DNA from: Acrocarpospora macrocephala
Lineage (GTDB): Bacteria; Actinomycetota; Actinomycetes; Streptosporangiales; Streptosporangiaceae
Assembly (NCBI RefSeq): GCF_009687865.1
Contig: NZ_BLAE01000059.1
Location: 1 to 64,000, forward strand
DNA length: 64,000 bases
Direction of reading: 5' to 3'
Shown here: positions 47,638-62,871 of the stretch, piece by piece
Position numbering within the stretch: position 1 is the first letter of the stretch
Layout of the letters: each line of letters opens with the position of its first letter
Notes under the pieces: model-generated
The model's database searches: none
The model's input: the letters and a program-made list of their open reading frames with translations, nothing else
Told to the model about the DNA's origin: nothing
Made by a program: the position numbers and the translations under genes

Positions 47638-49020
47638 TCACATGCCTTTCAGTTGGGATAGGCGCAGGTCCGGGTGCTTGCCCGCCCGATGGACCAGGCC
47701 GGTGAAGGTCTCCCCGATCAGGTGACCCGTCTCGGCGGAGAACAGGTCGCTGTTGTATTCGAGCCAGCCGCCGACGCCGTCGGCGTCCCGGTAGATCTCC
47801 CCGAAGACCTCCGCCCTGGCCTGGGTGACCCGCAGCGGCTCGCACGTCTCCACCCGCAGATCGCCCAGCGTGGTACGGAACAGGTCGGCCTTCGGCAGAT
47901 CGTGGGTGAGGTTGAACACCACCTGGCAGAGCGGCGGGCGGCTCAGATCCCGGGGCGGCTGGACCGCGTTCAGCACCCGCTCGAACGGCGTGTCGGAGTT
48001 CTGCAGCGCCCGCAGGAACGGCCCCTTGGCCCGGCGCAGCAGCTCCCGGAAGGTCGGGTCGCCGGACAGGTCGGCGCGCAGCGCGATCGTGTTGGAGAAG
48101 CAGCCGATCAGCGGCGCGAACTCGGCCCGGCCGCGCCCGTGCACCGGCACGCCCACGCAGAAGTCCTGCTGCCCGGCCAGCATGCCCATGCTCGCCTGGA
48201 ACGCCACCACGAGCGCCATGAACTGGGTGCAGCGCTCCTGCTTGGCCAGCTCCTCCAGCCTGGTCGCGGCGTCGTCGGGCACCGAGACGTACTGGCGAAC
48301 CGCCCGCCCGCTCCACCGCTTCGGCCGCGGCCGATCGGTGGGCAGGTCCAGCGGCGGCACACCGGCGAGCCACTCGGCCCACCACTCCAGGGCGCGCGGG
48401 TCCTGCCGCTTCCGTTCCCACACCGCGAAATGCCGGTATTGCAGGGGAAGGGCGGGCAGGTCGGCTTCCCGGCCTTCCCGGTAGGCGGCATAACATTCGG
48501 CCAGCTCGCGCATGAGCACGTCAAGCGACCAGGCGTCACCGGCGATGTGGTGGATCACCATGCAGAGCAGGTGCGCGTCCCCGTCGGCGATCAGCGCCAC
48601 CCGGATCGGCAGGTCCCTGCTCAGGTCGAAGGGCCGGTTGACGAACCCGACCACCGCCTGCTCGCCGCCGTCCATCCGCTCCACCGGCACCTGCTCCGGC
48701 TCCCGCACCACCTGCGCCGGCCGGTCGCCCCGCAGCAGGAACCGGGTGCGCAGCACCTCGTGCCTGGCCACGATCCGGGAGAACGCCCAGACCAGCCCCG
48801 CGTGGTCCACCGCGCCGTGCAGCCGGACATGCCACATCATGTGGTAGCCGGTGTCGGCCGGGTCGAACCTGCTGAGGAACCACAGCCGCTCCTGGCCGGA
48901 GGAGAGCGGCCAGGCCATCCCGTCCGCCTGCTCGGCCAGCGACCTGCGCAGCGCCTCCCGCCGCGCCTGCGGCAGCTCCGCCAGCCGTTTGACCAGCTCC
49001 GCGCGATCCTCGGGGGTCAT
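47638..49020 (-). CDS. Stand-alone NRPS condensation domain
   Basis: The 460-residue protein is a single C domain: PLSSGQERLWFL, RHEVLRTRF, IHHIAGDAW, and CVGVPVHGRGR. The C3 motif reads HHxxxDA instead of HHxxxDG; the catalytic second His is kept. It overlaps the first NRPS gene (ATGA) and ends one base before the A-T gene start, so it probably supplies the condensation activity missing from that protein. Confidence 0.88.
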   Translation of the reverse strand: MTPEDRAELVKRLAELPQARREALRRSLAEQADGMAWPLSSGQERLWFLSRFDPADTGYHMMWHVRLHGAVDHAGLVWAFSRIVARHEVLRTRFLLRGDRPAQVVREPEQVPVERMDGGEQAVVGFVNRPFDLSRDLPIRVALIADGDAHLLCMVIHHIAGDAWSLDVLMRELAECYAAYREGREADLPALPLQYRHFAVWERKRQDPRALEWWAEWLAGVPPLDLPTDRPRPKRWSGRAVRQYVSVPDDAATRLEELAKQERCTQFMALVVAFQASMGMLAGQQDFCVGVPVHGRGRAEFAPLIGCFSNTIALRADLSGDPTFRELLRRAKGPFLRALQNSDTPFERVLNAVQPPRDLSRPPLCQVVFNLTHDLPKADLFRTTLGDLRVETCEPLRVTQARAEVFGEIYRDADGVGGWLEYNSDLFSAETGHLIGETFTGLVHRAGKHPDLRLSQLKGM

Positions 49021-52000
49021 GACGTGACCTTCTCGAGCCGGCGCTGCAGCGCCTGTGTGCCAACCAGGTCATCGGGCACCGCGTCCGGCACCTCCTCGTC
49101 GAAACGGGCCAGCCTGCTGATCCGCAGCGCGGCCAGCGCGATGACCGCGATCGCCAGGCCGCAGACCAGATAGAGCAGGCCGATGCCGCGGTCCGCGCCG
49201 ATGCCGGCCGCCGCGCCGATGTGCTTGAACAGCTCCGACCCGTACGGCACGACCACGATGTAGCCGAACGGCAGGGTCGACCAGGCCACCAGCGTGTTCA
49301 GCGCGATCACCCGGCCGTGGAACCGCTGCGGCACCTTGACCTGGATGATCGTCGCGTACTGGCCGTTGATCAGGGTCATGCAGAACGCCATGCCGAACGC
49401 GCCCGCCGCGATCAGGGTCAGATCCGAGCGGAACCCCACCACCCCGCAGAACACCGCGAAGCCCAGCGTGGCCAGGAACACCCCGCGCAGCCGGTGCCTG
49501 CGCGGCCCGCCCCAGACGCTCATCACCAGGCCGCCGAGCAGGCCGCCCACCCCGCCGGCCAGCGACACCCGCGCGATGTCGGCCAGCGTCGCGAAGGACA
49601 GCACCAGCGGCGTGAACATCAGCCACAGCGGCGCGAGGAACACGTTGAGCACCGCGAACCAGAGCAGCATGGCGCGGAAGCTGACGTTGCCCCACGAGTG
49701 CCGGACGCCGCCCGCGATCTCGGCGAGCAGCCCCTCCCTGCGCCGCCACGCCATCGTCCTGGGGAACTGGACGAAGACCACCACGAGGGTCGCCACCACG
49801 TAGCTGAGCACGTCCAGCGCCAGGATGCCGCCGAGGCCGATCACCGACAGCAGCCCGACCGCGAGCAGCGGCACCAGCAGCATGGCCGACCCGCTCACGG
49901 TCGCCACGACGCCGTTGGCGTGGCCCAGGTACTGCTTGGGCACCAGCTGCGGGACCGCCGACATGTACGCGAACCGCTGGAACGTGAGCGCCAGCGACAG
50001 CGCCACGATCAGCGGATAGATATGCCACACCTGGAGGTTGCCCGTCCACGCCAGGACGCCCAGGATCAGCTGCACCCCGCCCGCGGCCAGATCGCCGAGG
50101 ATCATGATGGTGCGCCGGTCGTACCGGTCCACGATTGCCCCGGCCAGCGGCGACACCAGCATGCCGGGCACCAGCCCGAGCACCGCGAACATGGTGAAGT
50201 CGGCCAGCGACCCGGTGGTGATGTAGATCCACACCGGGATGGCGAAGTCGGTCAGCGCCGAGCCCGTCCACGAGATCAGCTGTCCGGCGGCGACGGCGAA
50301 GAAGCGGCGCATGCTCGGGCTGGGGCCGAGCGCGAGCCCGTCCTCGTCGGCCGCCACGTCCTTGCGGGACAGCCCCTGCAGCCACCAGGTGGACCGCTCG
50401 GTGCGGCGGAGCGGCTCTGTGGCGTCCTCCGCGATCGCCCGGTGGGTGCCGGTGACGATCGCGGCCAGCTCTTCGGCGCGGTACTTCAGGTAGAAGTGCC
50501 CGGCTTCGTCGAGCACCACCCCGGCGGCGCAGTCGCTCAGCAGGTGCCACTCGCGGTAGCGCTCCTGGTAGAACTCGCAGGCCGGGTCGCGTTCGCCCGC
50601 CACTGAGATCACGGGGGCGCGCAGGCGCGCGATGCCCTGCTCGAACAGGTTCGTGAAGTACTGCTCGGCCTCGCGGGTGCCCCGCCTGCGGTTCTCGATC
50701 ACGAGCTTGAGCTGGGCGGGTTCGAGGTCGTCGAGGTCCAAGCCGGCCGCTTGCAGGGCGTTGGCCCAGATCTGGTCGCTGCGCAGGCGCTCCATGACGC
50801 GGGAGAGTCCGGCCAAGCGGCCCCTCGGGCGGCCGAACGGGAAGATGCCGCCCAGGTAGACGGCGTCCACCTCGCGGCCGGCCGCCTCCAGCTTGCGGGC
50901 GATGTCCACGGTGAGCATGACGCCCAGGCCGCAGTGGCCGTACAGGACGAGCGGGCCTTGCACGTTCGCCAGGATCTCCGCCACGCAGCCGTCGGCGACC
51001 TCCGGGATCGGGCGGCCCTCTTCGCCCAGCTCGTGGCCGGGGACGGCGATCGAGAGGAGCTGCCAGTCGTCCGGCATCACGTCGGCCAGGGGTTTGTAGA
51101 TGACCGCGCTGCCACCGCCGTACGGCGCGCAGACGAGGGTCCCTTTCGTCTGCTTCCGGGGTGGTGTGAACCGGTGCAGGAAACGTTTCGGGCCGCTGTC
51201 GCCGGTGTCGAGGAGGCGGGCCAGGTCGCGTACGGTGCGGTGTTTGAACAGGTCGAGTACGGTCACGGTCCGGTGTGGCACGGCCTTGCGGAGGCGGGCG
51301 ATCACGCGCATGGCCAGCAGTGAGTGGCCGCCGAGGGTGAAGAAGTCGTCGAGCGCGCCGACCTGGTCCGCGTCGAGCAGGTCGGCCCAGATGGCGGCGA
51401 CGATCCGCTCGGATTCGGTGGCAGGGGGGATGTGCTCGCCCGCTGGGAGCGCGGCGAGTTCGGGGAGTTTGTCGCGGTCGATCTTGCCGTGGGATTTGAG
51501 GGGGAGTTCGGCCAGCCAGATGAACTGAGTGGGGATCATGTAGTCGGGGAGGGTTCGTGCCAGGCGGTCGCGGAGTTCCTCGTCGGGGACGGGGTCGCCA
51601 GTGAGGTAGGCGACCAGGCGGTCGTTGCGGGGGACGACCACGCAGGCGCCGCCGATGACGGCTTCGATCTCGGCGGGTTCGACGCGGTAGCCGCGGATTT
51701 TGAGCTGGTGGTCGCGGCGGCCTAGGAAGTCCAGGTCGCCTGAGGGTAGCCAGCGGGCCAGGTCGCCGGTGCGGTACATGCGGGCGCCGGGCTCGCCGTA
51801 CGGGTCGGGGAGGAAGTTCTCGGCGGTGAGCGCTGGGCGGTTCAGGTAGCCGCGGGCCAGGCGGGGGCCGCCGAGATAGACCTCGCCGGGGACGCCCACG
51901 GGGACCGGGCGCAGGTGCCGGTCAAGGACGTGCACGCGCGCGCCCGGGAGGGGCTCGCCGATGGGGAGTGTGCCGTGGTCCTGCGGGAACTCGATCTTGT

Positions 52001-54302
52001 ACGTTGTGACGCCCACCGTGGCTTCGGTCGGGCCATAGTGGTTGACGACCGGGCAGATCTGGGCGAGTTCGCTTGCCCAGGTGGCGTCGGCCGCTTCGCC
52101 ACCGAGGATCAGCAGCCGCCGGGGGAGTAGCTCGGCGGGTGGCGTGTCGGCGGACAGCGCGGCCAGATGTGATGGCGTGATCTTGAGATAGTCCGCCGGT
52201 CTTTTCCGGAAATATGCGGCTAAATCGGGGCCTGCTGTGCGGGAGGGGATCAGATTGAGGGTGCCGCCGGTCATCAGGCACAGGTAGAAGACCGTCACCG
52301 CGAAGTCGAACGCCAGCGATTGCAGCAGCGCGAATGACGCGCCCGGTTCTATCCCGAAACGTTCGTGCACGCCCGCCAGATATGTCATGACTTCGCGATG
52401 CTGAACGGCGACACCCTTCGGCCGCCCGGTCGTCCCGGAGGTGTAGATCACATACGCGAGATCCGCGCTTCCAGCGCTTCGGTCGATGTTCGCCCCGTTT
52501 ATCCCTTCGCCGACCAGGACCGGGCTGACCCCGCCAGGAAGGCGATCGAGCAGCGTGCTGTCCGTGACGACCAGCTCCGCCCTCGCGTCCGACACCACGA
52601 ACGCGAGCCGCTCCTTCGGATGTTCGGGATCCAGCGGCAGATACGCCGCGCCCGATTTGAGCACGCCGAGCACCGCCACCGCCGACTCCACCGACTGCTC
52701 CAGGCAGATCCCCACCCGGCTTCCCGGCCCTGCCCCCAGCCGCAGCAGCCGGTTCGCCAGCTCTTCGGCGAGCCCGTCCAGCTCCGCGTAGGTCAGCGAT
52801 TTCTCGCCGCAGACGACCGCCGTGGTCAGGGGCGTACGAGCGGCTTGCGAGGAAATCGCCTCGTGCAACGTTCCCGCCGATGTGAACGGCGTCGCCGGCT
52901 CGCTCGCCCCGAACGCCAGGACCTCGGCGGCCTGCTCCTCCGCGAGCATGTCCAGCGCCGAGACCCGCACGTCCGGATCGGCCACGATCGACCGCAGCAG
53001 CCTGCCGAAACACGCGTTCAGCCGCTCCATCGTCGCGGGCCGGAACAGCGCCGTGGAATAGACGAACGTCCCCGTCAGCCCGCCCGGCGTCTCGAACAGA
53101 TACAGCGCCAGGTCGAACCTGCTGGAAACCGTCGGAACCGGAAACGCCTCCAGCGTCAGCCCTGGCGTCTTCAACCCGCTCGACCGGTAGTTGTGCAGCG
53201 AGAACAGCACCTGGAACACCGGCGGCCGGGACACGTCCCGCTCGACCGCCAGCTCGGTCACCAGCCGGTCGAACGGCAACTCCTGATGCGTGTACGCGTC
53301 CAGCGCCGTCTCCCGGGTCCGCCCCAGCAGCTCCGCGAACGTCGGATCCCCGGACAGGTCCGCACGCATCGGCAGTGAGTTAATGAAAACCCCCACCATC
53401 CGCTCAAGCTCGGGCAGATCCCGCCCCGACACCGGCGACCCGACCGCGAAGTCCTCCTGCCCGGAGAACCGCGACAGCAGCACCTGGAACGCGGCCAGCA
53501 TCGTCATATACCTGGTCGCGCCATGCTTGCGCCCGAGCAGGGTCAGCGCCTCGGTCAGCTCGGCGTCCACCCAGACGTCACTCGCCGCGCCCTCCCACCG
53601 CTGCTCCGGCGGCCGGGGAAAGTCGGTCGGCAGGTCCAGCGGCGGCAGGCCCGCCAGCTGCCCCCGCCAGTAGGCGATGTCCTTGTCGTGCGAGCGGTCC
53701 CGCTGCCAGCGCGCGTAGTCGCCGTACTGCACGGCGATGGGCGCCAGCCGCGCCTCGGTCCCCGCCCGCCTGGCCGTGTAGAGCGCGAACAGCTCCTCCA
53801 TCGCGATGTCGCACGACCAGCCGTCGGTGACGCTGTGATGCATGGACAGCAGCAGCACCGACTCGCTCGCGCCCAGCCTGATCACGAGCACCCGGATCAG
53901 TGGCCCGCGCTCCAGGTCGAAGGGCCGGTCCAGCTCCCGCGGCAGCCGCGACAGGTCGTCCACGTGGAACTCGGCGTCGGGGCCGTCGAGCAGGACCTGC
54001 GGCTCGCCGTCCTCGGTGGCGGTGAACCGCATCCGCAGGGCTTCATGCCGGGCGGTCAGGTCCTTGAGCGCTTTGGCCATCGCCTCTTCGTCGATCGCGT
54101 CGTCCACCCGGACGGCGAAAGGGACGGTGTAGGCGGGGGTGTCAGGGGTGTACTGCTCCAGGAACCAGAGGCGCTCCTGGGCGTACGACAGCGGGGGAGG
54201 CGTGTCCGCGGGGCGCCGCTGGATCGACAGCGCCGCGGCCCCTTGCCGGAACCGTTGCGCGAGCCGGGAACGCTGGGCAGGCGAGAGTTCGGCCCGCGTC
54301 AC
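49017..54302 (-). CDS. NRPS C-A-T-TE fused to an MFS transporter; TE has a Cys nucleophile
   Basis: The 1761-residue protein starts at GTG 54302 (GGGGA seven bases upstream). Domains: C ~15-450 (MHHSVTDGWS); A ~460-960 (YTSGTTGRPKGVAVQH, YGPTEATVG); T with Ser994 (LGGHSLLAM); thioesterase ~1060-1310; MFS permease ~1330-1745 with about twelve helices. The pocket code by eye, D-F-T-K-I-G-H-V-G-K, is near the Asp code DLTKVGHIGK. The TE nucleophile motif is GHCGLG (Cys1124) instead of GHSxG, with acid in GERDPA and His in EAGHFY. Cys thioesterases are known from NRPSs that form strained rings (obafluorin ObiF, sulfazecin SulM). The fused MFS domain could export the product on release. This is the first gene of the operon. 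Confidence 0.92.
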   Translation of the reverse strand: MTRAELSPAQRSRLAQRFRQGAAALSIQRRPADTPPPLSYAQERLWFLEQYTPDTPAYTVPFAVRVDDAIDEEAMAKALKDLTARHEALRMRFTATEDGEPQVLLDGPDAEFHVDDLSRLPRELDRPFDLERGPLIRVLVIRLGASESVLLLSMHHSVTDGWSCDIAMEELFALYTARRAGTEARLAPIAVQYGDYARWQRDRSHDKDIAYWRGQLAGLPPLDLPTDFPRPPEQRWEGAASDVWVDAELTEALTLLGRKHGATRYMTMLAAFQVLLSRFSGQEDFAVGSPVSGRDLPELERMVGVFINSLPMRADLSGDPTFAELLGRTRETALDAYTHQELPFDRLVTELAVERDVSRPPVFQVLFSLHNYRSSGLKTPGLTLEAFPVPTVSSRFDLALYLFETPGGLTGTFVYSTALFRPATMERLNACFGRLLRSIVADPDVRVSALDMLAEEQAAEVLAFGASEPATPFTSAGTLHEAISSQAARTPLTTAVVCGEKSLTYAELDGLAEELANRLLRLGAGPGSRVGICLEQSVESAVAVLGVLKSGAAYLPLDPEHPKERLAFVVSDARAELVVTDSTLLDRLPGGVSPVLVGEGINGANIDRSAGSADLAYVIYTSGTTGRPKGVAVQHREVMTYLAGVHERFGIEPGASFALLQSLAFDFAVTVFYLCLMTGGTLNLIPSRTAGPDLAAYFRKRPADYLKITPSHLAALSADTPPAELLPRRLLILGGEAADATWASELAQICPVVNHYGPTEATVGVTTYKIEFPQDHGTLPIGEPLPGARVHVLDRHLRPVPVGVPGEVYLGGPRLARGYLNRPALTAENFLPDPYGEPGARMYRTGDLARWLPSGDLDFLGRRDHQLKIRGYRVEPAEIEAVIGGACVVVPRNDRLVAYLTGDPVPDEELRDRLARTLPDYMIPTQFIWLAELPLKSHGKIDRDKLPELAALPAGEHIPPATESERIVAAIWADLLDADQVGALDDFFTLGGHSLLAMRVIARLRKAVPHRTVTVLDLFKHRTVRDLARLLDTGDSGPKRFLHRFTPPRKQTKGTLVCAPYGGGSAVIYKPLADVMPDDWQLLSIAVPGHELGEEGRPIPEVADGCVAEILANVQGPLVLYGHCGLGVMLTVDIARKLEAAGREVDAVYLGGIFPFGRPRGRLAGLSRVMERLRSDQIWANALQAAGLDLDDLEPAQLKLVIENRRRGTREAEQYFTNLFEQGIARLRAPVISVAGERDPACEFYQERYREWHLLSDCAAGVVLDEAGHFYLKYRAEELAAIVTGTHRAIAEDATEPLRRTERSTWWLQGLSRKDVAADEDGLALGPSPSMRRFFAVAAGQLISWTGSALTDFAIPVWIYITTGSLADFTMFAVLGLVPGMLVSPLAGAIVDRYDRRTIMILGDLAAGGVQLILGVLAWTGNLQVWHIYPLIVALSLALTFQRFAYMSAVPQLVPKQYLGHANGVVATVSGSAMLLVPLLAVGLLSVIGLGGILALDVLSYVVATLVVVFVQFPRTMAWRRREGLLAEIAGGVRHSWGNVSFRAMLLWFAVLNVFLAPLWLMFTPLVLSFATLADIARVSLAGGVGGLLGGLVMSVWGGPRRHRLRGVFLATLGFAVFCGVVGFRSDLTLIAAGAFGMAFCMTLINGQYATIIQVKVPQRFHGRVIALNTLVAWSTLPFGYIVVVPYGSELFKHIGAAAGIGADRGIGLLYLVCGLAIAVIALAALRISRLARFDEEVPDAVPDDLVGTQALQRRLEKVTS

Positions 54303-55197: not shown

Positions 55198-55278
55198 AAC
55201 TTCGCTCCTTCAGGATGAGCCGGGACCGTGTGATGAAGTACGGTTTGACCCGCCGGAAAACACCTGAGGAGAAACACC

Positions 55279-55326
55279 GTGGCGGACTTTACCGATCCCC
55301 GACCTATGTGGGGATTCGCGAAGTGA
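55279..55326 (+). CDS. Possible 15-codon leader ORF overlapping the kinase start
   Basis: GTG 55279 is preceded by GAGGAG with a seven-base spacer, one of the best ribosome sites in the region. The frame reads ADFTDPRPMWGFAK after the start and stops at TGA 55324-55326, which overlaps the GTG of the kinase gene. It may serve only to couple translation. Alternatively it marks a frame disturbance at the kinase N-terminus. Confidence 0.35.
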   Translation: MADFTDPRPMWGFAK

Positions 55327-56804
55327 CCCTGCTCGCCGAACGGTACCGGCTTATTGCGCCCATCGGCCAGGGTGGCATGGGCACGGTCTGGCACGCCATG
55401 GACGAACTCCTCCGCCAAGAGGTCGCGATCAAGGAAGTGCTGCTTCCGCCTGACCTCGGCGAAGCCCAGCTGGTCGAGATGCGCGAGCGCACCCTGCGCG
55501 AAGCCCGCGCCGCCGCGCGGCTGCGTTCCCACCCGTCGATCGTGACCGTGCACGACGTGGTCCTGGACGGCGGGCGCCCGTGGATCATCATGGAGCTGGT
55601 CCGGGGGCAGTCCCTCGACAAGATCGTCCGTACCGGCGGGCCGCTGCCGCCGCAGCGGGTCGCCGAGATCGGGCTGACCATGCTGGACGCGCTCAACGCC
55701 GCCCATTCCATGGGCATCCTGCATCGGGACGTCAAACCGGGCAACGTGCTGATCACCGGCCAGGGCCGGGTCCTGCTCACCGACTTCGGCATCGCGACCG
55801 TGGCGGGCGACGTGGCCCTGACGCAGACCGGCCTGCTGAGCGGTTCGCCCGGATATATGGCTCCAGAACGCCTGCGTGGCGAGCCTGACGGGCCGCTGGC
55901 CGATCTGTGGTCGCTGGGCGCCACGTTGTACACGGCTGTCGAGGGGACCACGGCGTTCCACCGGGAGAACCCCGCGGCGATCATGGCCGCGGTGCTGATG
56001 CACGAGCCGCATCCGATGCGGCTGGCGGGGCCGCTGGCGCCCGTACTGGCCGCGATCCTGGAGAAGGACCCGGCCCGCCGCTGCCCGCCCGGCTATGCCG
56101 CCGCCCAGTTCCAGGCGATCGCCGGAGGCGGCATCCCCACCGGCCCCACCATGCCCGCCCCGCTGGCCCCGCGCCCCCGCCGTGGCTCCCCGACGCCGCT
56201 CATCGTCGGCGGCGTCCTGGGGGTGACATTGCTCGCCATCACCGGTGTGGTCCTGTGGCGCGACGACCTGATCCCGTCATTCGCCGCCACTCCCAGCACG
56301 AGCAGCTCCGCCAATGGCACCGGCACCGGCGAACCGTCGTCCGAACCCACGGCCGAGGCGACCCCGCTGCTCCGCGCCGACCCCGAAGCGTGTGACCTCC
56401 TCACCCCCGCCCAGGCGCGGGTCCTCCTGGGCGGCGCGGTCAAGCGCCAGTTCCAGACCCACGGCTCGTGCATGTGGACGGGCCCCAACAACACCTCGTT
56501 CATCAACCTGCAGAAAACCCAGTTCGTGAACCTGGAGGTCACCCAGTCGGCGTACGACGGGATCCGGGCGACCATGGAGGACGAGCCCAAGCGCTACCCC
56601 GCCACCCGCCTGCGGGCCACCCGGACCGTCGGCAACGCCACCTACAGCTGGACCCGCCAAGCCGACGGCTACCACCAGACGACCGTCATGTTCAAAACCG
56701 CCAACGTGACAGCGTCCCTGTACTACTCGGGCCCTCGACCGGGTTTCGCCACCGCCGACCGCGCCGCCAAACTCGTCAACGCCGCGATCCTGGCCGCTCA
56801 CTGA
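55323..56804 (+). CDS. Membrane Ser/Thr protein kinase (PknB-like) with DUF3558-like sensor domain
   Basis: Starting at GTG 55323 the 493-residue protein opens directly on LLAERYRLIAPIGQGGMGTV (glycine loop). Catalytic elements are VAIKEV (Lys), HRDVKPGNVL and TDFGIA, all intact. One membrane helix follows (LIVGGVLGVTLLAITGVVLW), then a Ser/Thr/Gly linker. The extracellular part, CDLLTPAQARVLLGG...SCMW, resembles DUF3558 lipoprotein domains, likely the sensor. Earlier in-frame starts exist at 55215 and 55236 but lack good ribosome sites. The ligand and substrates are unknown; the vWA-phosphatase-kinase operon begins ~340 bp downstream. Confidence 0.88.
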   Translation: MTLLAERYRLIAPIGQGGMGTVWHAMDELLRQEVAIKEVLLPPDLGEAQLVEMRERTLREARAAARLRSHPSIVTVHDVVLDGGRPWIIMELVRGQSLDKIVRTGGPLPPQRVAEIGLTMLDALNAAHSMGILHRDVKPGNVLITGQGRVLLTDFGIATVAGDVALTQTGLLSGSPGYMAPERLRGEPDGPLADLWSLGATLYTAVEGTTAFHRENPAAIMAAVLMHEPHPMRLAGPLAPVLAAILEKDPARRCPPGYAAAQFQAIAGGGIPTGPTMPAPLAPRPRRGSPTPLIVGGVLGVTLLAITGVVLWRDDLIPSFAATPSTSSSANGTGTGEPSSEPTAEATPLLRADPEACDLLTPAQARVLLGGAVKRQFQTHGSCMWTGPNNTSFINLQKTQFVNLEVTQSAYDGIRATMEDEPKRYPATRLRATRTVGNATYSWTRQADGYHQTTVMFKTANVTASLYYSGPRPGFATADRAAKLVNAAILAAH

Positions 56805-56813
56805 GCACGCGGG

Positions 56814-56886
56814 TGGCGGGTGCGGGGATCGAACCCGCCTTCAGCGGCTTATGAAACCACCGGGCACACCAGCGCCCCCACCCGCC
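56814..56886 (-). tRNA. tRNA-Met-like (anticodon CAU)
   Basis: The minus strand folds into a full 73-nt cloverleaf. The acceptor is GGCGGGT/ACCCGCC with discriminator A. The D stem is GGGC/GCCC with a GCTGGTGT loop. The anticodon stem GTGGT/GCCGC closes the loop TTCATAA, placing CAT at 56851-56853. The variable region is TGAAG and the T arm is GCGGG-TTCGATC-CCCGC. CCA is not encoded. Oddities are G at position 8 instead of U and a short D loop without A14. It could be elongator tRNA-Met or a lysidine-modified tRNA-Ile. It lies antisense just behind the kinase stop. Confidence 0.75.
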
Positions 56887-57144
56887 TCACCTCCTGGGCA
56901 CTCCAAGCTTTGCCCACGCACCATCTCCCCTCAACGGATTTTCTCGCCGCCCACACGGCTGAGAATGCCCCAAGATATGGTGATTTATCCGAATATAGCT
57001 GACTATGGAGATAGCTTCTGTAGCTATATCAAGAAAAATGTGTGCCAACAGGTAAACCTGTGATGGATCCCGCGCATCTTACGGACAGGAACGCTCCAAC
57101 GGAGTGCCCCTAGGTCCGTGACGGCCATTCAACAGAGGTGATCA
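56887..57144. other. Intergenic region with AT-rich segment upstream of the vWA operon
   Basis: There is no gene here. Positions ~56950-57060 are strikingly AT-rich for this genome and contain ATAGCT/AGCTAT inverted repeats (about 57009-57028) and an earlier ATATAGCT. This probably holds the promoter of the operon starting at 57145 and possibly a regulator site. Confidence 0.5.
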
Positions 57145-57915
57145 ATGTCGCAGCCCTCCGGGACATACCACCCGACTTCGCCTTACACGGTGAATCTGGA
57201 ACCCGTCTACGGGTTGCGACCACGGGCGTTCCCCTTCTACATCGTCTGTGACGTGTCCCATTCCATGTGGGCCGAGCGCTCCGACGGGCCCGCACCCTGG
57301 GACAGCCTCGCCCCCTGCGTCCGGAAGCTGCTGTTCGAGCTGGAATCCAGCAGCCCGGAGGTCAGCGAGGCAGCCCATGTCTCCATCGTCGCCTTCCACG
57401 ATCAGGCGGAGGTGATCCTCCCGCTGACCCGGCCCGTCAACGCGATCAATGTGCCGATCCTGCCCAAGGGCGGCCAGACGAATTACGCGGATGTGTTCGA
57501 AAAGCTTGCCCCGATCATCGAAGCCGACTGTGTCAGGCTGGAGCGCGATCACCGGCGGAAGATGCCGGTGGTGTTCTTCGTGACCGACGGCAATCCGTAC
57601 GTCGGTCACGAGGACCAGCCGGCGGAAGTCTGGCTGCCGATGCGCGACCGGCTGGTCGACCCGGCCAGGCCCTTCCCCGCCCACGTGGTGGCGATGGGGT
57701 TCGGCGATGTCAAGGAACAGACGCTCTGCCAGGTGGCGACGGAGTTTCACGGCAACAAGCTGGCCTATGTCGCCAAGGTCGGGCAGAACCCCTCCACGGT
57801 GGTCAAAGAGATCGTCGAGTCGATCTGTATCAGCATCAGCGCCTCCGTCACCGGCCCCGACTTCGTCATCCAGGTGCCCGAGGGCATGCGGCAGATCAAT
57901 TGCGGAGCATGGTGA
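57145..57915 (+). CDS. vWA-domain protein, TerY-like
   Basis: The 256-residue cytosolic protein has the metal-ion-dependent adhesion site DVSHSM (DxSxS-like) near residue 37, PKGGQTNYADVFEKL with the MIDAS Thr, and FFVTDGNPY with the third metal ligand. The fold matches TerY-type vWA proteins, which occur in gene triads with a PP2C phosphatase and a kinase. Its TGA overlaps the next start (TGATG). It probably scaffolds the signalling proteins encoded downstream. AGAGGTGATCA precedes the ATG. Confidence 0.88.
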   Translation: MSQPSGTYHPTSPYTVNLEPVYGLRPRAFPFYIVCDVSHSMWAERSDGPAPWDSLAPCVRKLLFELESSSPEVSEAAHVSIVAFHDQAEVILPLTRPVNAINVPILPKGGQTNYADVFEKLAPIIEADCVRLERDHRRKMPVVFFVTDGNPYVGHEDQPAEVWLPMRDRLVDPARPFPAHVVAMGFGDVKEQTLCQVATEFHGNKLAYVAKVGQNPSTVVKEIVESICISISASVTGPDFVIQVPEGMRQINCGAW

Positions 57916-60029
57916 TGCGATCCCGCGCGGGAATCGCCGCCGGCCTGCTTCTGGTCGCCTGCGGCCTGGCTGGATGCGCCGCCGGCGACACGGACGTGGG
58001 CCATCGTGCCGCGTCCCCGGCCGGCGAGGTGGCCCAAGATCCCATCACCATCCAGTCGTTCGGGCTCGCGGAAGACAACTACATCGCGATGCTGTTCGCC
58101 GAGGCGCTGCGACAGACCGGCCGGAGCGCCGAGACCAAGTTCATCGAGGACACCACGATCGAGGAGCAGGGGGCTCCGGCCACGTTGAGCCTCGTCTACG
58201 ACCTCGATTTGCTCGAGCACCTGGCCGGGCCCGAGTTCCAGGCGGTCCGATCGCAGGAGTTCCAGTCCGAACTGCCGGGGCGGCTGCCACAGTCACACGT
58301 CGTGGTGGCCCCACTCCCGGTGGTGCGGAAGGACATCCTCATCTTCGACAGCAACGAGATCAAGTCAGAGCAGGTGACCAAGTTCTTCGCCAACACCCCA
58401 GGACAGGAGCCGGGCGATCTCGCGGGAAAAGACGTCACCGTGCGCGAGACGTTCGGCAGCGGCCTGACGACGGAGTTGCAGACCCGGTATCCCCTGCTCA
58501 AGCTGAGCTTCGAGAAGCCGGACAAGCTCAGGAAGGCCGTTGAAGGGCGCGACGTGCCCATCGCCATCGTGCCCGAGACCATGACGTCGCGTTCCGGGTA
58601 CAAGACCGCGCGGACGCCGGACGGCTTCTTGCCGGAGCGTACTCTCCTCGCTGTCACCACCGGCATCGACGACGCGACCAGGCAGCTGCTCCGGGAGGTG
58701 GCCACCAGGCTGGACGCCACCGCGGTGCGGAAGGCCGTGGCCGCAGGCCCGGCCTCCTTCCCCCAGTCGGCACGGCGGTGGCTGGACGACAAGGGCCCCA
58801 AGCTGGCGCCCGTAGCGCAGTCGACGAGCCCGTGCGCCGGTTCCTGCGGGCAGGCACCCGACCTGAACTTCCTGCCGTCCGGAGCGATCATCGCCGCCTT
58901 CCTGCTGTTGAGCGGGTCGGTCTGGCTGGTACGCCGTTTCCGCCTGTTCGGGCCCTCCCCACGGAGGAACAGGCTGGGGGAGGACGAATCCGGCCTGGAA
59001 CCGACCTCGACGCCCGCCCACGTCTCAGACCCACTGCCACCCGGCCTAACCGCAGGCAACCAGCTTCTCTCCGCACAGACAGCCGAGGATGAAGTCAGCG
59101 CACAGGATCCGGAGGAATCTGTAAGTGCGACTCAGGTGCTGGAGCACGCGAGACAGGACGACCCCGAGGGTGAGAACGAACCTTTCGTCGCGGGCCGCCC
59201 GCCGAAGCCCATCAGAGTACGGCTGCCGCCCGTGGTCACCTCGGCGATCGCCGGGACCGCGCTGGACTGGGGCCTCATCGGGAAGACGACGGTCCGCGCG
59301 GCCAGCGTCCGCGGACGCACCCACTCCTATGACGGCGAACCCCGCCAGGACGCGTACGGCGTGCGCCTCAGCTCGGACCGCCGCTGGGTGATCGCGGTCG
59401 TGGCCGATGGCCTCGGCAGCGCCGTACGCGCCGAAATCGCCGCCACGGCCGCGGTCGCTCGCGCGCTGAGCATCATCGACGATGATCTCGCCACGGACCC
59501 GCGCCTGGACTGGTATCAGGTGATGGAGCGCATCGCCGGCGCCATCACGGAAGCCGTCGACTCGCCGGCGACGGGCCAGGCGCAGGCCAAGGCGTCGGCC
59601 AAGCCGGCCACCACGCTGACCGCGGTGGTGATTCCCGCCGAAGGCCCTGGAGAGGTCGTCTGCGCCGCGGTGGGCGACTCCCCGGCCCTGCTGCTGGCCG
59701 AGGGGTACTGGCAGCCGATCGTGACGGCGGAACCGAAGGCCCCGATGCTGGAGAACGTCACCAGGTCGCTGCCCGGCGCCCCGCACGCCGTCCGGATCGA
59801 CCGGCGGGAGTGGCAGGCGGACGGTCTGCTCATCATCACCACGGACGGATTCCACGACAGCCTTGGCGACGGCCGCACCGGGTTCGCGCAGCACGTGGCG
59901 GAGAAATGGAAGAAACCACCTGGAATTCTGGAATTCCTCCGATACATAGATTTCCGTGCCTCCGGGTTCCACGACGATCGTACGGTCGTGGCCATTTGGG
60001 GCGGCGAGCATGACACCGAAGTGGCATGA
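57915..60029 (+). CDS. Lipoprotein solute-binding domain fused via one TM helix to a PP2C phosphatase
   Basis: ATG 57915 is favoured by GGAG seven bases upstream (57909 is possible), giving 704 residues. The N-terminus has a lipobox LAGC (Cys21). Residues ~35-300 resemble a type 2 (OpuAC-like) solute-binding protein: ITIQSFGLAEDNYIAMLFAEAL, later VRETFGSGLTTELQ. One membrane helix lies at ~322-345 (GAIIAAFLLLSGSVWLV), then a ~110-residue disordered linker, then a PP2C domain (~460-700): RQDAYGV, AVVADGLGS (metal Asp), TTDGFHDS and HDDRTVVAIWG. It should sense a ligand outside and dephosphorylate Ser/Thr inside. The next gene overlaps it (ATGA). Confidence 0.88.
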   Translation: MRSRAGIAAGLLLVACGLAGCAAGDTDVGHRAASPAGEVAQDPITIQSFGLAEDNYIAMLFAEALRQTGRSAETKFIEDTTIEEQGAPATLSLVYDLDLLEHLAGPEFQAVRSQEFQSELPGRLPQSHVVVAPLPVVRKDILIFDSNEIKSEQVTKFFANTPGQEPGDLAGKDVTVRETFGSGLTTELQTRYPLLKLSFEKPDKLRKAVEGRDVPIAIVPETMTSRSGYKTARTPDGFLPERTLLAVTTGIDDATRQLLREVATRLDATAVRKAVAAGPASFPQSARRWLDDKGPKLAPVAQSTSPCAGSCGQAPDLNFLPSGAIIAAFLLLSGSVWLVRRFRLFGPSPRRNRLGEDESGLEPTSTPAHVSDPLPPGLTAGNQLLSAQTAEDEVSAQDPEESVSATQVLEHARQDDPEGENEPFVAGRPPKPIRVRLPPVVTSAIAGTALDWGLIGKTTVRAASVRGRTHSYDGEPRQDAYGVRLSSDRRWVIAVVADGLGSAVRAEIAATAAVARALSIIDDDLATDPRLDWYQVMERIAGAITEAVDSPATGQAQAKASAKPATTLTAVVIPAEGPGEVVCAAVGDSPALLLAEGYWQPIVTAEPKAPMLENVTRSLPGAPHAVRIDRREWQADGLLIITTDGFHDSLGDGRTGFAQHVAEKWKKPPGILEFLRYIDFRASGFHDDRTVVAIWGGEHDTEVA

Positions 60030-61174
60030 ACGTGGGCGATTCCGACTGGATCATCTCTCCGCGCACGTTGCGGCCGGCCGACGGCCGGGACACCATGAGC
60101 TTCCACGGCGGTGGTCAGAGCACCCGGCCGACCCTCGTTCACGGACCCGGCGACGAGGTCTACCTGCTGAAGCGCTACAACCCGGAGACCCGGGAGAGCC
60201 TGCACGTTCCGGCTCTGCGGACCATGATCCATTGGCGGCGGGAGCTGCCCCGGAGCGAACGGGCCGAGCTTGACGCACGATGCGCCTGGCCGGTGTCGGC
60301 GGTTGGCCGGGGCGACCGGCCCGAAGGCATCCTGGTCAAGCTCGCCCCCCAGGAGATGTTCGAGCGGCAGATCCCGGAGGACGGGGTCGTGATCGACATG
60401 CCGCGGCGCGTCAGCGACCTCACGGGGATGTTCGAGTGGTCCGTGCGTCGAGCCCAGCGCCTGCGGCTCGATCGCGAGTATTACGAGCCGCCGTACAAGC
60501 TCGCCCTGCTCGGCCAGCTGTTCGAGACCATGGACTGGCTGCACCAGCGCGGATACGTGGTCGGGGACCTGCACCCGGGGAACGTGCTGTTCGCCATCGA
60601 CCCCAGACCCGCCGTCTTCCTGCTCGACTGCGACTCCTGCATCCCGCCCGGCGGGCAAGGAGCGATGAAGCAAGTCGATCCCGACCAGTACAAACTGCCG
60701 CCCGGGCATCAGGGTGAGCCGTTCACCCTGCAATCGGACTACTACAAGTTCGCCTGGATGGTCATCCGCTGCATTCAGGAGCGGTCGGAGAGCTGGGATA
60801 TCGAGCCCGGGGTTCTCGGGCATGTGATGAGCCCGGAACTCGTCGAAAGACTGGTCGCCTGCGCCAAATGGGAGAAGCCGCCGGGGATGCGGGAGTGGCT
60901 GCAGATCGAAGCCTCGTCCTGGCTCGGGCCGGTGGTCGACGGGCGCATGTTCGTCGGCACCGGCCGTCAGACGAGGGAGCTCTGGCCGAAGGGACTCTCC
61001 GCGGTGTCCTACCAGCCGCCGCGGGAGCAGGACGCGCCCGTACCGGTGCTCGCCCGACCGGCGGCGCCGCCAGCGACGGCGCGTCGCTGGTCGGTTCCGC
61101 TGCGCTGGGCCGCCGCGATCGCGCTGGCCCTGATCGTGATTCTGATCGTCGTGAACGGAGGAGTGTTTTCTTGA
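60026..61174 (+). CDS. Atypical protein kinase-like protein with C-terminal membrane anchor
   Basis: The 382-residue protein has a kinase-like fold. EVYLLKRYN could supply the ATP-binding Lys, YVVGDLHPGNVLF replaces the HRDxKxxN catalytic loop (GDLHPGN keeps Asp and Asn), and LLDCDSC replaces DFG (DCD keeps the metal Asp). This divergent set is typical of the kinases in TerY-phosphorylation triads. A C-terminal helix (WAAAIALALIVILIVVNG) anchors it. It lies between the phosphatase and the second kinase with 4-bp overlaps on both sides, so all are coexpressed. Confidence 0.82.
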   Translation: MNVGDSDWIISPRTLRPADGRDTMSFHGGGQSTRPTLVHGPGDEVYLLKRYNPETRESLHVPALRTMIHWRRELPRSERAELDARCAWPVSAVGRGDRPEGILVKLAPQEMFERQIPEDGVVIDMPRRVSDLTGMFEWSVRRAQRLRLDREYYEPPYKLALLGQLFETMDWLHQRGYVVGDLHPGNVLFAIDPRPAVFLLDCDSCIPPGGQGAMKQVDPDQYKLPPGHQGEPFTLQSDYYKFAWMVIRCIQERSESWDIEPGVLGHVMSPELVERLVACAKWEKPPGMREWLQIEASSWLGPVVDGRMFVGTGRQTRELWPKGLSAVSYQPPREQDAPVPVLARPAAPPATARRWSVPLRWAAAIALALIVILIVVNGGVFS

Positions 61175-62301
61175 GAGTCGAGCCGCTCCGGAGTGGAGAT
61201 CCGCGAAAGATCGGGCCGTACCGGGTCGAAGGGCGGATCGGTTGCGGCGGCCAGGGGTGCGTCTTCCTCGCGAAGGGGCCGGGCCGCCCGCAGGTGGCGA
61301 TCAAGGTGCTGCACCTGGGCAGGGCCGACGACGCCGACGCGCGCCGCCGCTTCGCGGAGGAACTTCTGCTCATGCGGAAAGTCCCGCCGGAGCACACCGC
61401 GGTGGTGTACGACGCGGACGTCGACGGCGAGGAGCCCTACCTGGTCGTCGAGTACATTCCCGGACCATCGCTGCAGCAGGCCGTCATCGAACGGGACGTG
61501 ATCGCCGATACCCCGCTGCAACGGCTGGCCACCCAGATGGCGACGGCGCTGGTCGCCATCCATGGCGCCGGCGTGGTGCATCGCGACCTGAAACCCGCCA
61601 ACGTCCTGCTCGGCCTGGATGGCGTCCGGGTGGTGGACTTCGGGATCGCGCAGGCCGCGGAGGCCACCGCGCTCCAGACCAACGTGGTGATGGGAACCTT
61701 CGCTTACATGGCGCCGGAGCAGTTCTCGGGTAAGTCGAGCCCGGCCACCGACGTGTACGCGTGGGCGGCGACCCTGGTTTTCGCGGCCTCTGGGCGGCCG
61801 CCCTGCGGCGACGAGGGCGGCATGCCGGCGATCATCAACCGCGTCCTGAACCAGCCGCCGGAACTGGGCCCGATCACCGAGCCGCTCCGGTCGATCGTGC
61901 GTCGCTGCCTGGCCAAGCGGCCCGAGGAAAGGCCGACGGCGTGGTGGCTGCTGCAATCCCTGCTCGTCCGCGACCCCGGCCTGCCCGTTCAGCCGCGGAC
62001 GGATGTCCCGCCGCTGCGGCTGACGGTGTCCGGGAAGTCGTACGAGCTGAACAGCACGAAGATCTACACGGTCGGCGGTCCCGGCTGCACGATCGAGATC
62101 GCCGACTTCCCGGCCGAACTGCTCTACCTGCGATATCGGGACGAGTGGATGATCCGCGTACGGGTTCCCGACGCGGACATCCGGGTCGAGAGAGCGCAGC
62201 ATAATGCCGACACGCTGCTGCTCTCGGAAACAGGTGCGAACTGTACGGTCACCGCGTACATCGGCAGCCGGCGGGTGACGTGCGGGCTGACGCTGGGGTA
62301 G
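61171..62301 (+). CDS. Ser/Thr protein kinase with C-terminal FHA-like domain
   Basis: The start is TTG 61171, overlapping the upstream stop, with GGAGG nine bases before it; 376 residues. The kinase domain is canonical: RIGCGGQGCVFLA, VAIKVL, HRDLKPANVLL, VDFGIAQ, APEQFSG. The last ~95 residues (LRLTVSGKSYELNSTKIYTV, GGPGCTIEIADFP) are beta-rich and may be a degenerate FHA-like or similar binding module. There is no membrane helix, so it is cytosolic. It is the last gene of the vWA-PP2C-kinase operon and converges with the DUF1707 gene, with 3 bp between stops. Confidence 0.88.
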   Translation: MRVEPLRSGDPRKIGPYRVEGRIGCGGQGCVFLAKGPGRPQVAIKVLHLGRADDADARRRFAEELLLMRKVPPEHTAVVYDADVDGEEPYLVVEYIPGPSLQQAVIERDVIADTPLQRLATQMATALVAIHGAGVVHRDLKPANVLLGLDGVRVVDFGIAQAAEATALQTNVVMGTFAYMAPEQFSGKSSPATDVYAWAATLVFAASGRPPCGDEGGMPAIINRVLNQPPELGPITEPLRSIVRRCLAKRPEERPTAWWLLQSLLVRDPGLPVQPRTDVPPLRLTVSGKSYELNSTKIYTVGGPGCTIEIADFPAELLYLRYRDEWMIRVRVPDADIRVERAQHNADTLLLSETGANCTVTAYIGSRRVTCGLTLG

Positions 62302-62304
62302 CTT

Positions 62305-62871
62305 TCAGCGGCTTGGATACCTGATCTTGATGCGACCCATGCCGAGCTTGCCGCTCAGCCGCAGCGTCGTCGTCACGTTCATGTCGGCGGAGCCGGGCGC
62401 CTTGTTGATCACATGGCCCATGCCCGTGACGAGCCCGTCGACGACGGCGATCCAGCCGCGCGGCACGATGACGATGATCTTGCCTGACCCGCAGGTGGCC
62501 TCCAGGCGCACCTCCTGGTGACGGCACACCGCCTCGGTGAAGTCGATCGTGATGGTGCCCATCGTCACCGTGGCCGTGATCCGCTCGGGCACCACCCAGC
62601 GGCCCACCTGCGTGATCTTTCCGGAACGGGTCTCAAGGACCAGTGGCTGGGCGTCGGAGAGCATCGACCGGCCTTGCGGAAGATCCATGATCAGGGTGTC
62701 CAGCTCGGCGTAGGTCTTGGCGGCGTACACGCCTTCGAGCCTGTCCTCAAGCTCGTCCAGGGTGATCCGGCCCTCACCGGCGGCCACCCGCAGACGATCC
62801 GACACCGCGTCGCGGTCCGCATCTGAAGCTCGCAGAGTCCTGTGGATTTCACCGGCGCTTTGCTCAGTCAC
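62305..62871 (-). CDS. DUF1707 (SHOCT-like) protein with LiaF-like C-terminal domain
   Basis: The 188-residue protein starts with the DUF1707 motif LRASDADRDAVSDRLRVAAG followed by EGRITLDELEDRLEGVYAAK, found at the N-terminus of many actinobacterial regulators. The C-terminal half (VTMGTITIDFTEAVC, IIVIVPRGWIAVVDG) is a beta-helix-like region similar to cell-wall-active-antibiotic-response (LiaF/DUF2154) domains. No membrane helix. The GTG start at 62871 is the only good one. It may sense envelope stress, by analogy. Confidence 0.82.
   Translation of the reverse strand: MTEQSAGEIHRTLRASDADRDAVSDRLRVAAGEGRITLDELEDRLEGVYAAKTYAELDTLIMDLPQGRSMLSDAQPLVLETRSGKITQVGRWVVPERITATVTMGTITIDFTEAVCRHQEVRLEATCGSGKIIVIVPRGWIAVVDGLVTGMGHVINKAPGSADMNVTTTLRLSGKLGMGRIKIRYPSR

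Follow-up and report, generated by a model that had tools for sequence, protein, structure and literature searches.

How might a bacterium let an extracytoplasmic signal set the state of a serine/threonine (Ser/Thr) phosphorylation relay, and what would that relay control? The stimuli that activate bacterial Ser/Thr kinases are named as an outstanding question in PMC6069109, and a unit of four coupled genes in Acrocarpospora macrocephala raises it again. The unit lies at 57145-62301 (+) of the 64,000-nt stretch that we analysed, hereafter the window, which is contig 59 (NZ_BLAE01000059.1) of a 12.1-Mb assembly in 166 contigs. Its genes, A to D, encode a vWA protein, a PP2C phosphatase with an extracytoplasmic half, an atypical membrane-anchored kinase and a canonical Ser/Thr kinase. 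Pfam, motifs and hydropathy confirm this composition, which had been proposed in an initial annotation of the sequence. The cassette appears to be a previously undescribed variant of a known bacterial signalling triad.

The four genes are tightly coupled. In the coordinates of the open reading frames (ORFs), neighbouring genes overlap by 4 bp at all three junctions (GTGA, ATGA and TTGA), in agreement with the overlaps noted initially; besides GTG 57912, ATG 57909 is a possible start for B and would extend the A/B overlap to 7 bp. D starts at TTG 61171, with GGAGGAG ahead of it. In the four other cassettes whose B protein has a domain of the solute-binding protein (SBP) type, the A/B overlap is 1 or 4 bp long (4/4) and a start codon overlaps the stop of B (4/4, with the start of C deduced). 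A promoter scan gave no sigma-70-like site, and one terminator-like site was present against 2.3 expected.

The sequence motifs of all four products are intact. Protein A has a metal-ion-dependent adhesion site (MIDAS; D36-x-S38-x-S40, T112, D148), of which D36, S38, T112 and D148, together with G149, are identical in 15/15 aligned sequences and S40 is T in one. Protein C, matched in Pfam by APH alone and below threshold (6.7e-4), retains the kinase motifs K49, GDLxxxN (D181, N186) and DCDS (D201, D203), with K49, G180, D181, L182, N186, D201, C202 and D203 identical in 15/15. In D, K45, HRDxKxxN, DFG and APE are identical in 8/8. These counts for A, C and D include the window, and the aligned rows are a chosen subset of loci. 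The phosphatase domain of B matches PP2C_2 (1.6e-23, aa 467-667), and D480, D499-G500, D645-G646 and D688-D689 are invariant in all five aligned B proteins; we take these aspartates to be the PP2C metal ligands, and on that assumption the ligands that the initial annotation relied on are in place. Searched against PDB sequences, the domain gave no match at 1e-3.

What sets B apart is its outer half. The lipobox at its N terminus recurs in the four other SBP-type B proteins, and RRFR follows its single transmembrane (TM) helix on the predicted inner side. Simple hydropathy, the method used here for all TM helices and topology in place of a dedicated predictor, finds no TM helix in A or D; the ectodomain is predicted to lie outside, the PP2C domain inside, C to be anchored inside and A and D to be cytosolic. 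Pfam, NCBIfam and PDB sequence searches with the ectodomain gave nothing useful (best PDB E 0.23). Aligned jointly, the five cassette ectodomains reach hhalign 97.3% (240 columns) against 15 OpuAC-family proteins drawn from a family search and 98.7% (242 columns) against 11 stand-alone SBPs; with the window removed, the remaining four reach 96.7 and 98.4, and all 14 ectodomains, with those of the GAP1-type proteins described below, give 92.1 and 97.6. The 22 controls, one reversed and ten shuffled per target on the five-row alignment, stayed at or below 0.21%. Judged by profiles, the ectodomain is OpuAC-like by ancestry, a kinship visible only together with relatives. With the lipobox and the one TM helix, this bears out the external domain initially placed on the phosphatase; gating by a solute, which was proposed with it, would be one use of a domain that is OpuAC-like by profile.

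Homology places the first three genes in a known family. Nineteen-row profiles were built for A, for PP2C and for C and compared with E. coli K-12 proteins: A matched YegL (hhalign 97.6%; HMMER 2e-11) and C matched YegI (89.5%; 5e-9), and the PP2C profile matched PphC in HMMER at 1e-10 (HMMER values from one-sequence searches). The swapped pairs A/PphC and PP2C/YegL stayed below 0.2%, and the D profile scored 4.7% against YegI with no HMMER match. A-B-C is, on these profiles, related to YegL-PphC-YegI in the same order, with PphC the weakest. Because the C profile matches YegI and that of D does not in HMMER, C is the triad kinase and D a variable fourth module added to the triad. The K-12 order is yegL-pphC-(yegJ)-yegI, with yegJ between the last two, and the cassette likewise runs vWA-PP2C-kinase. 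However, PphC, at 253 aa, is too short for the ectodomain that B carries, YegI has 648 aa against 382 in C, and the E. coli stretch shown has no fourth kinase gene corresponding to D. PphC is reported to dephosphorylate the membrane kinase YegI (PMC13232886), a precedent that by analogy supports the opposed kinase/phosphatase logic suggested for this locus from the outset.

The initial annotation had called the unit a variant of the TerY-phosphorylation (TerY-P) triad, and part of that stands. The triad of Anantharaman 2012, as described in PMC11090510, is a vWA, PP2C and kinase operon with an intact MIDAS; here too a MIDAS vWA gene adjoins a PP2C gene with invariant aspartates. By the same source, however, the kinase is fused to a C-terminal zinc ribbon, or to an OB fold in the form reported against phages. 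The cassette differs in a kinase without zinc ribbon, in membrane topology and in the OpuAC-like ectodomain on the phosphatase. Pfam finds neither a zinc ribbon nor an OB fold (sought with Pfam only) in C, whose C-terminal end is occupied by the TM helix; of its five cysteines (86, 202, 205, 249, 279), the sole CxxC lies within the catalytic motif DCDSC. Because C has a TM helix and no second CxxC, the cassette is TerY-P-like, related to vWA/PP2C/kinase triads, rather than strict TerY-P.

Other published systems share parts of this design. In the proposed GlnH/GlnX/PknG pathway, an SBP lipoprotein controls a Ser/Thr phosphorylation relay (PMC6069109), but the proteins are separate and the kinase is the controlled partner, whereas here the SBP-type domain sits on the phosphatase. 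Sorangium PBP-SpoIIE-type phosphatases (PMC2887360) resemble B in fusing a periplasmic-binding domain to a PP2C-superfamily phosphatase; theirs is a PF00532 domain in a SpoIIE-like clade, and the accessible text does not mention a vWA/kinase operon. Kinase-SBP fusions are known in print (PMC1262709). An SBP-PP2C fusion in a vWA/kinase operon was not found among the literature matches listed, with most subscription journals outside reach. Genes for a kinase, a PP2C and a vWA protein can also be present at actinobacterial GAP1-N2 loci (PMC7159879), as they are in the cassette, and the ectodomain family recurs on GAP1-like proteins; there the SBP part lies near the C terminus rather than on a phosphatase. 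Pfam matched no DO-GTPase or GAP1 in A-D or in the two scanned neighbours, the upstream kinase and the DUF1707 gene (Table).

These GAP1-like proteins were observed in other family genomes, at L024, L025 and L114-L125, as long open frames of ~800-1170 aa, with the OpuAC-like domain near the C terminus and usually between two TM helices. GAP1-M matched two of the three scanned below threshold (E 0.05-0.06) and L116 not at all; DUF4407 genes adjoin both loci tested (L024, L025). The domain scores 99.8% in hhalign against the cassette ectodomains (99.3% without the window); it appears to be the same sensor, placed on a conflict system of the GTPase type.

Cassettes of this kind recur in related actinobacteria. 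A search with C gave matches at 1e-3 in 124 of 341 family genomes, and at ~1e-54 or better in 24, the host included; 20 of the 23 other close relatives were examined (G007 and 19 more, leaving out G205, G221 and G234). The co-occurrence on which the initial annotation depended is found in these, with A-B-C order kept in 19/20 and the twentieth contig (G286) beginning inside B; the named relatives are Streptosporangium, Sphaerisporangium, Rhizohabitans, Nonomuraea and Actinomadura. The SBP-PP2C fusion is rarer. A profile of B (A1; the window, three SBP-type relatives and one without SBP) matched end to end in 5/297 family genomes from four genera (the window's own, G262, G361, G354 and G270), up to three candidates being scored in each genome; since all five are profile rows or, for G270, a near copy of one, no further fusion was found. 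Among 394 genomes across the class, with two candidates scored per genome, the only end-to-end match at 1e-10 was the window's own. In that scan, 10 of 40 rows matched the ectodomain part alone, and in the two that were opened a stand-alone SBP-type lipoprotein was seen by eye in the matching frame. A scan of named genomes gave 18 loci. Three (L133, L134 and L135) have the fusion, with A and PP2C 1086-1230 bp apart; in 14 that distance is only 192-448 bp, and L149 begins inside B. The scan gives a minimum, because it missed G354. The SBP part, used as a single-sequence query, matched 24 of the 341 family genomes, with GAP1-like proteins as the strongest other matches; four true relatives that the C query and B profile found escaped it. 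The plasmid collection gave three records with the PP2C part alone.

The cassettes of Nonomuraea type (L136-L147, L150; also L023, L098-L107, L111 and L112) share with the window the A-B-C-D order and, in the aligned rows, the tested catalytic motifs. In the 13 named loci, however, B has a short N terminus before its TM helix and D ends in a TM helix; D carries FHA, by Pfam in L023 and by tblastn in the others tested.

The cassette is accessory and mobile, a property absent from the initial annotation. Its interval is missing from the congener G001, where the site holds ~0.8 kb with a PIN-like two-gene pair (L214:3431-4218, -). The PIN-like gene matches PF01850 at 1.1e-4 (23.2 bits against a cut-off of 23.6), the small gene before it has no Pfam match, and the pair looks toxin-antitoxin-like by layout. 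Sphaerisporangium perillae and Streptosporangium subroseum have one 6.2-kb block in common at 93% identity, with no further match at 1e-10 outside it in the 16.8 kb compared. Synonymous divergence (dS) in the block is 0.03-0.08 (A, SBP, PP2C, C) against 0.484 for recA; between G354 and G361, of one genus, recA dS is 0.174 and that of gene A 0.69. Because cassette and recA dS are discordant in both comparisons, cassettes evidently move between species and genera, and the block shared by two genera reflects recent transfer.

The ectodomain changes faster than the parts inside the cell. Outside the sister pair S. perillae/S. subroseum, whose ectodomains are 90% identical, SBP-type cassettes share 19-26% identity in the ectodomain against 51-71% in PP2C, 57-81% in A and 45-67% in C. 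Within the pair, the ratio of non-synonymous to synonymous changes (N:S) is 28:8 for the ectodomain and 26:39 for A, PP2C and C together (Fisher p=3.5e-4); the rate ratio dN/dS of the ectodomain is 1.36, not significantly above 1 (p=0.24), against 0.21-0.25 in A, PP2C and C. TM helix and linker reach 1.65 on ten changes; a PASTA gene (0.79) and a 202-aa gene (0.76) in the block lie between. Purifying selection on the ectodomain was not detectable in this single close pair, which does not separate diversification from relaxed constraint. In a tree of A, PP2C and C, the SBP-less Nonomuraea cassettes nest inside SBP-type ones with moderate support (67, 76); in a tree of C, the four other SBP types form one group (68), and the window still falls outside both that group and Nonomuraea (81). 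Loss of the ectodomain in Nonomuraea-type cassettes is suggested by each tree.

The fourth position is variable. A D-type kinase adjoins C in 15/20 close relatives examined; among the five exceptions, C is followed by an FHA-ABC exporter in two and by a PASTA protein in another two, as read on named copies of those contigs, and the fifth is L110, outside that reading. In the window and Rhizohabitans, the fourth gene is a kinase with the same type of C-terminal domain (62008-62298 in D), which belongs to no recognised family; FHA was considered for it and is not supported (hhalign P=0.9). In G354 (L094:1810-5286, -), a single frame of 1159 residues joins kinase, D-type C-terminal domain, FHA, ABC ATPase and ABC2 permease, a kinase fused to its likely exporter target. 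The fourth gene is a kinase with FHA and a TM helix in Nonomuraea-type cassettes (TM in 13/13 named loci), an FHA-ABC2 protein after C in Actinomadura rubrisoli and formosensis, and a two-PASTA protein with a 202-aa protein in S. subroseum and S. perillae. PknF-Rv1747 is a known case of FHA-ABC export under kinase control (PMC3908365), where, as in cassette relatives, the kinase gene is beside the exporter; that operon has two genes without vWA or PP2C, and in the window Pfam shows no exporter in A-D or in the two neighbours scanned.

We consider a membrane-anchored reversible-phosphorylation switch the best explanation, and a fairly probable one. It builds on the anatomy, the intact motifs, the coupled gene order, the YegL/PphC/YegI homology, the OpuAC-like ancestry, the mobility and the rate contrast. 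The outer domain of B would bind an extracytoplasmic ligand or partner, and its opening or closing, passed through the single TM helix, would alter the activity or position of the inner PP2C domain. Membrane-anchored C would autophosphorylate and phosphorylate partners, with A as the best candidate for their scaffold or substrate; ArnB/ArnA is a known example of a vWA protein that is phosphorylated and has an FHA partner (PMC6509490). The phosphatase would undo phosphorylation by C and act against both C and D, and D, through its C-terminal domain, would relay the state to an output that varies: relatives have an FHA domain, or an FHA-ABC exporter that is fused to D or takes its place. Our inferences concern ligand binding, the sense of the gating, the role of A as a substrate and the output that this genome uses. 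The initial reading as a whole is partly supported.

Several results weigh against this switch. The PP2C profile reaches only 34.5% in hhalign against PphC, and single-sequence BLASTP is weak throughout (A/YegL 0.03; PP2C/PphC 4e-4 over 75 aa; C/YegI 3e-4 over 85 aa). The fold of the ectodomain is assigned by profile comparison: by itself the ectodomain matches no Pfam family up to E=10, the window copy scores just 0.6 and 13.5 against OpuAC proteins and stand-alone SBPs and is not recognised, and the GAP1-type homologues alone score 0.5 and 9.6. Nonomuraea-type cassettes lack the ectodomain, so the unit can do without it, and a dN/dS near 1 may mean relaxed constraint in place of diversification. 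The ArnB phosphosite mutations that were tested left motility and ArnA binding unaffected (PMC6509490).

A special case of the switch, whose odds therefore do not exclude it, would be an envelope-sensing conflict system, anti-phage or antagonistic, in which the mobile, fast-changing ectodomain would detect a variable non-self molecule and the relay would set off a protective or export response. Mobility, the accessory site and the identity and N:S contrasts all speak for it, as do reports of TerY-P-like modules acting against phages (PMC11090510, PMC7699616) and the same ectodomain type on GAP1-like proteins, given GAP1-N2 loci with kinase, PP2C and vWA (PMC7159879). We nevertheless hold it to be rather unlikely. 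Among PADLOC protein models, A and B match no family, C gives weak matches and D kinase-type models; PADLOC may not cover this class, because E. coli YegL and PphC also match none. A-D contain no toxic domain, nuclease or otherwise, that Pfam recognises, and the rate test comes from one close pair.

Transporter OpuAC proteins bind quaternary amines or similar osmolytes, and the ectodomain could do the same, setting PP2C activity by osmotic or nutrient state. Besides its ancestry, the Tyr aligned with that of EYxG in stand-alone SBPs is kept in the window, L133 and L134, the single position of the binding cage compared. Around it these three have YDLD[LV]L, not EYxGxLL, and L135 and L094 lack this motif; YDLD[LVI]L occurs in 8/14 aligned ectodomains of both cassette and GAP1-type groups, where transporter-type SBPs mostly show EYxGxLL or EYTGT. 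With the extreme divergence and no transporter among A-D (Pfam), osmolyte sensing seems unlikely, even with the GlnH/PknG precedent (PMC6069109). Just as unlikely, in our view, is an ectodomain that is vestigial or a structural anchor, an SBP fold without ligand that perhaps holds the phosphatase at the wall and drifts under relaxed constraint. The close-pair ratios, including that of TM helix and linker, and the loss suggested for Nonomuraea-type cassettes fit such drift, but open frame, lipobox and TM helix are kept in 5/5 SBP-type B proteins despite their divergence outside the sister pair. Finally, D might be an independent kinase trailing the triad, outside the circuit, as its displacement from C in five of 20 relatives would allow. 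This we find quite improbable: D overlaps C at TTGA, adjoins it in the other 15, and in four of the five exceptions other phospho-signalling parts occupy the same place.

A more tentative reading, less likely than not, is that the cassette is a horizontally mobile receptor-phosphatase module: a captured OpuAC-type lipoprotein would serve as a rapidly diversifying, possibly non-self-recognising sensor on a conserved vWA/PP2C/YegI-like relay, with inputs changing and outputs varied through the fourth gene (kinase, FHA-ABC exporter or PASTA). Because the likely input domain is covalent on the phosphatase and two kinases share the operon, a single cassette could suffice to reconstitute signal, writer and eraser. 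With conserved inner parts, a fast-changing outer part and movement between genera, the cassettes would provide a naturally varied set of sensors for a single relay, and that set may help to show what YegI- and TerY-P-type triads respond to. Most worth following are the sensor, which changes while its relay is conserved, the fusion with an exporter and the recent inter-genus transfer.

Table. Features of the cassette and its surroundings, in window coordinates
Feature	Position	Strand	Basis
Gene A, vWA protein, 256 aa	57145..57915	+	VWA_2 3.7e-8 (Pfam)
Gene B, lipoprotein-type N terminus, OpuAC-like ectodomain, 1 TM, linker, PP2C, 705 aa	57912..60029	+	
Signal sequence and lipobox LAGC of B, Cys22 counted from GTG	57912..57977	+	
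OpuAC-like extracytoplasmic solute-binding domain of B, aa 43-316	58038..58860	+	hhalign with relatives
TM helix of B, aa 322-340	58875..58931	+	hydropathy 1.85 over 19 aa
Cytoplasmic PP2C domain of B; D480, D499-G500, D645-G646, D688-D689	59232..60026	+	Pfam, alignment
Gene C, atypical YegI-like protein kinase, 382 aa	60026..61174	+	motifs, YegI profile
C-terminal TM helix of C, aa 363-381	61112..61168	+	hydropathy 2.73 over 19 aa
Gene D, Ser/Thr kinase of canonical type (aa 17-263) and C-terminal domain of ~97 aa	61171..62301	+	Pkinase 8.2e-39
Accessory interval, not in congener G001 at the same site	56806..62303	.	identity of flanks to G001:C8, 93% and 94%
tRNA-Met (CAT) beside the cassette	56812-56886	-	
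Upstream neighbour, Ser/Thr kinase with TM and sub-threshold DUF3558 part	55215-56804	+	
DUF1707 gene, sub-threshold LiaF-C-like part, convergent with the cassette	62305-62871	-	

DNA of the upstream kinase is present in G001 without the cassette and is less similar in G002-G004; the DUF1707 gene occupies the same site in G001, whereas G002-G004 carry it and the kinase on different contigs. In G002 and G003 a tRNA similar to the tRNA-Met lies 4 and 6 kb from the same kinase, that of G003 being of uncalled type, and ARAGORN found none in the G001 stretch; the site is possibly a turnover hot spot. Integration at the tRNA end was considered, yet no attachment (att) repeat was identified.

Elsewhere in the host genome, a second vWA-PP2C-kinase triad with no SBP match occupies 4655-11748 of contig 41 (L034 in G000), next to a divergently oriented 1263-aa protein with weak, sub-threshold NACHT/STAND matches. 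Within the window, a 1761-aa ORF at 49017-54302 (-) appears by eye to join a non-ribosomal peptide synthetase module and thioesterase to an MFS-type transporter in one frame.

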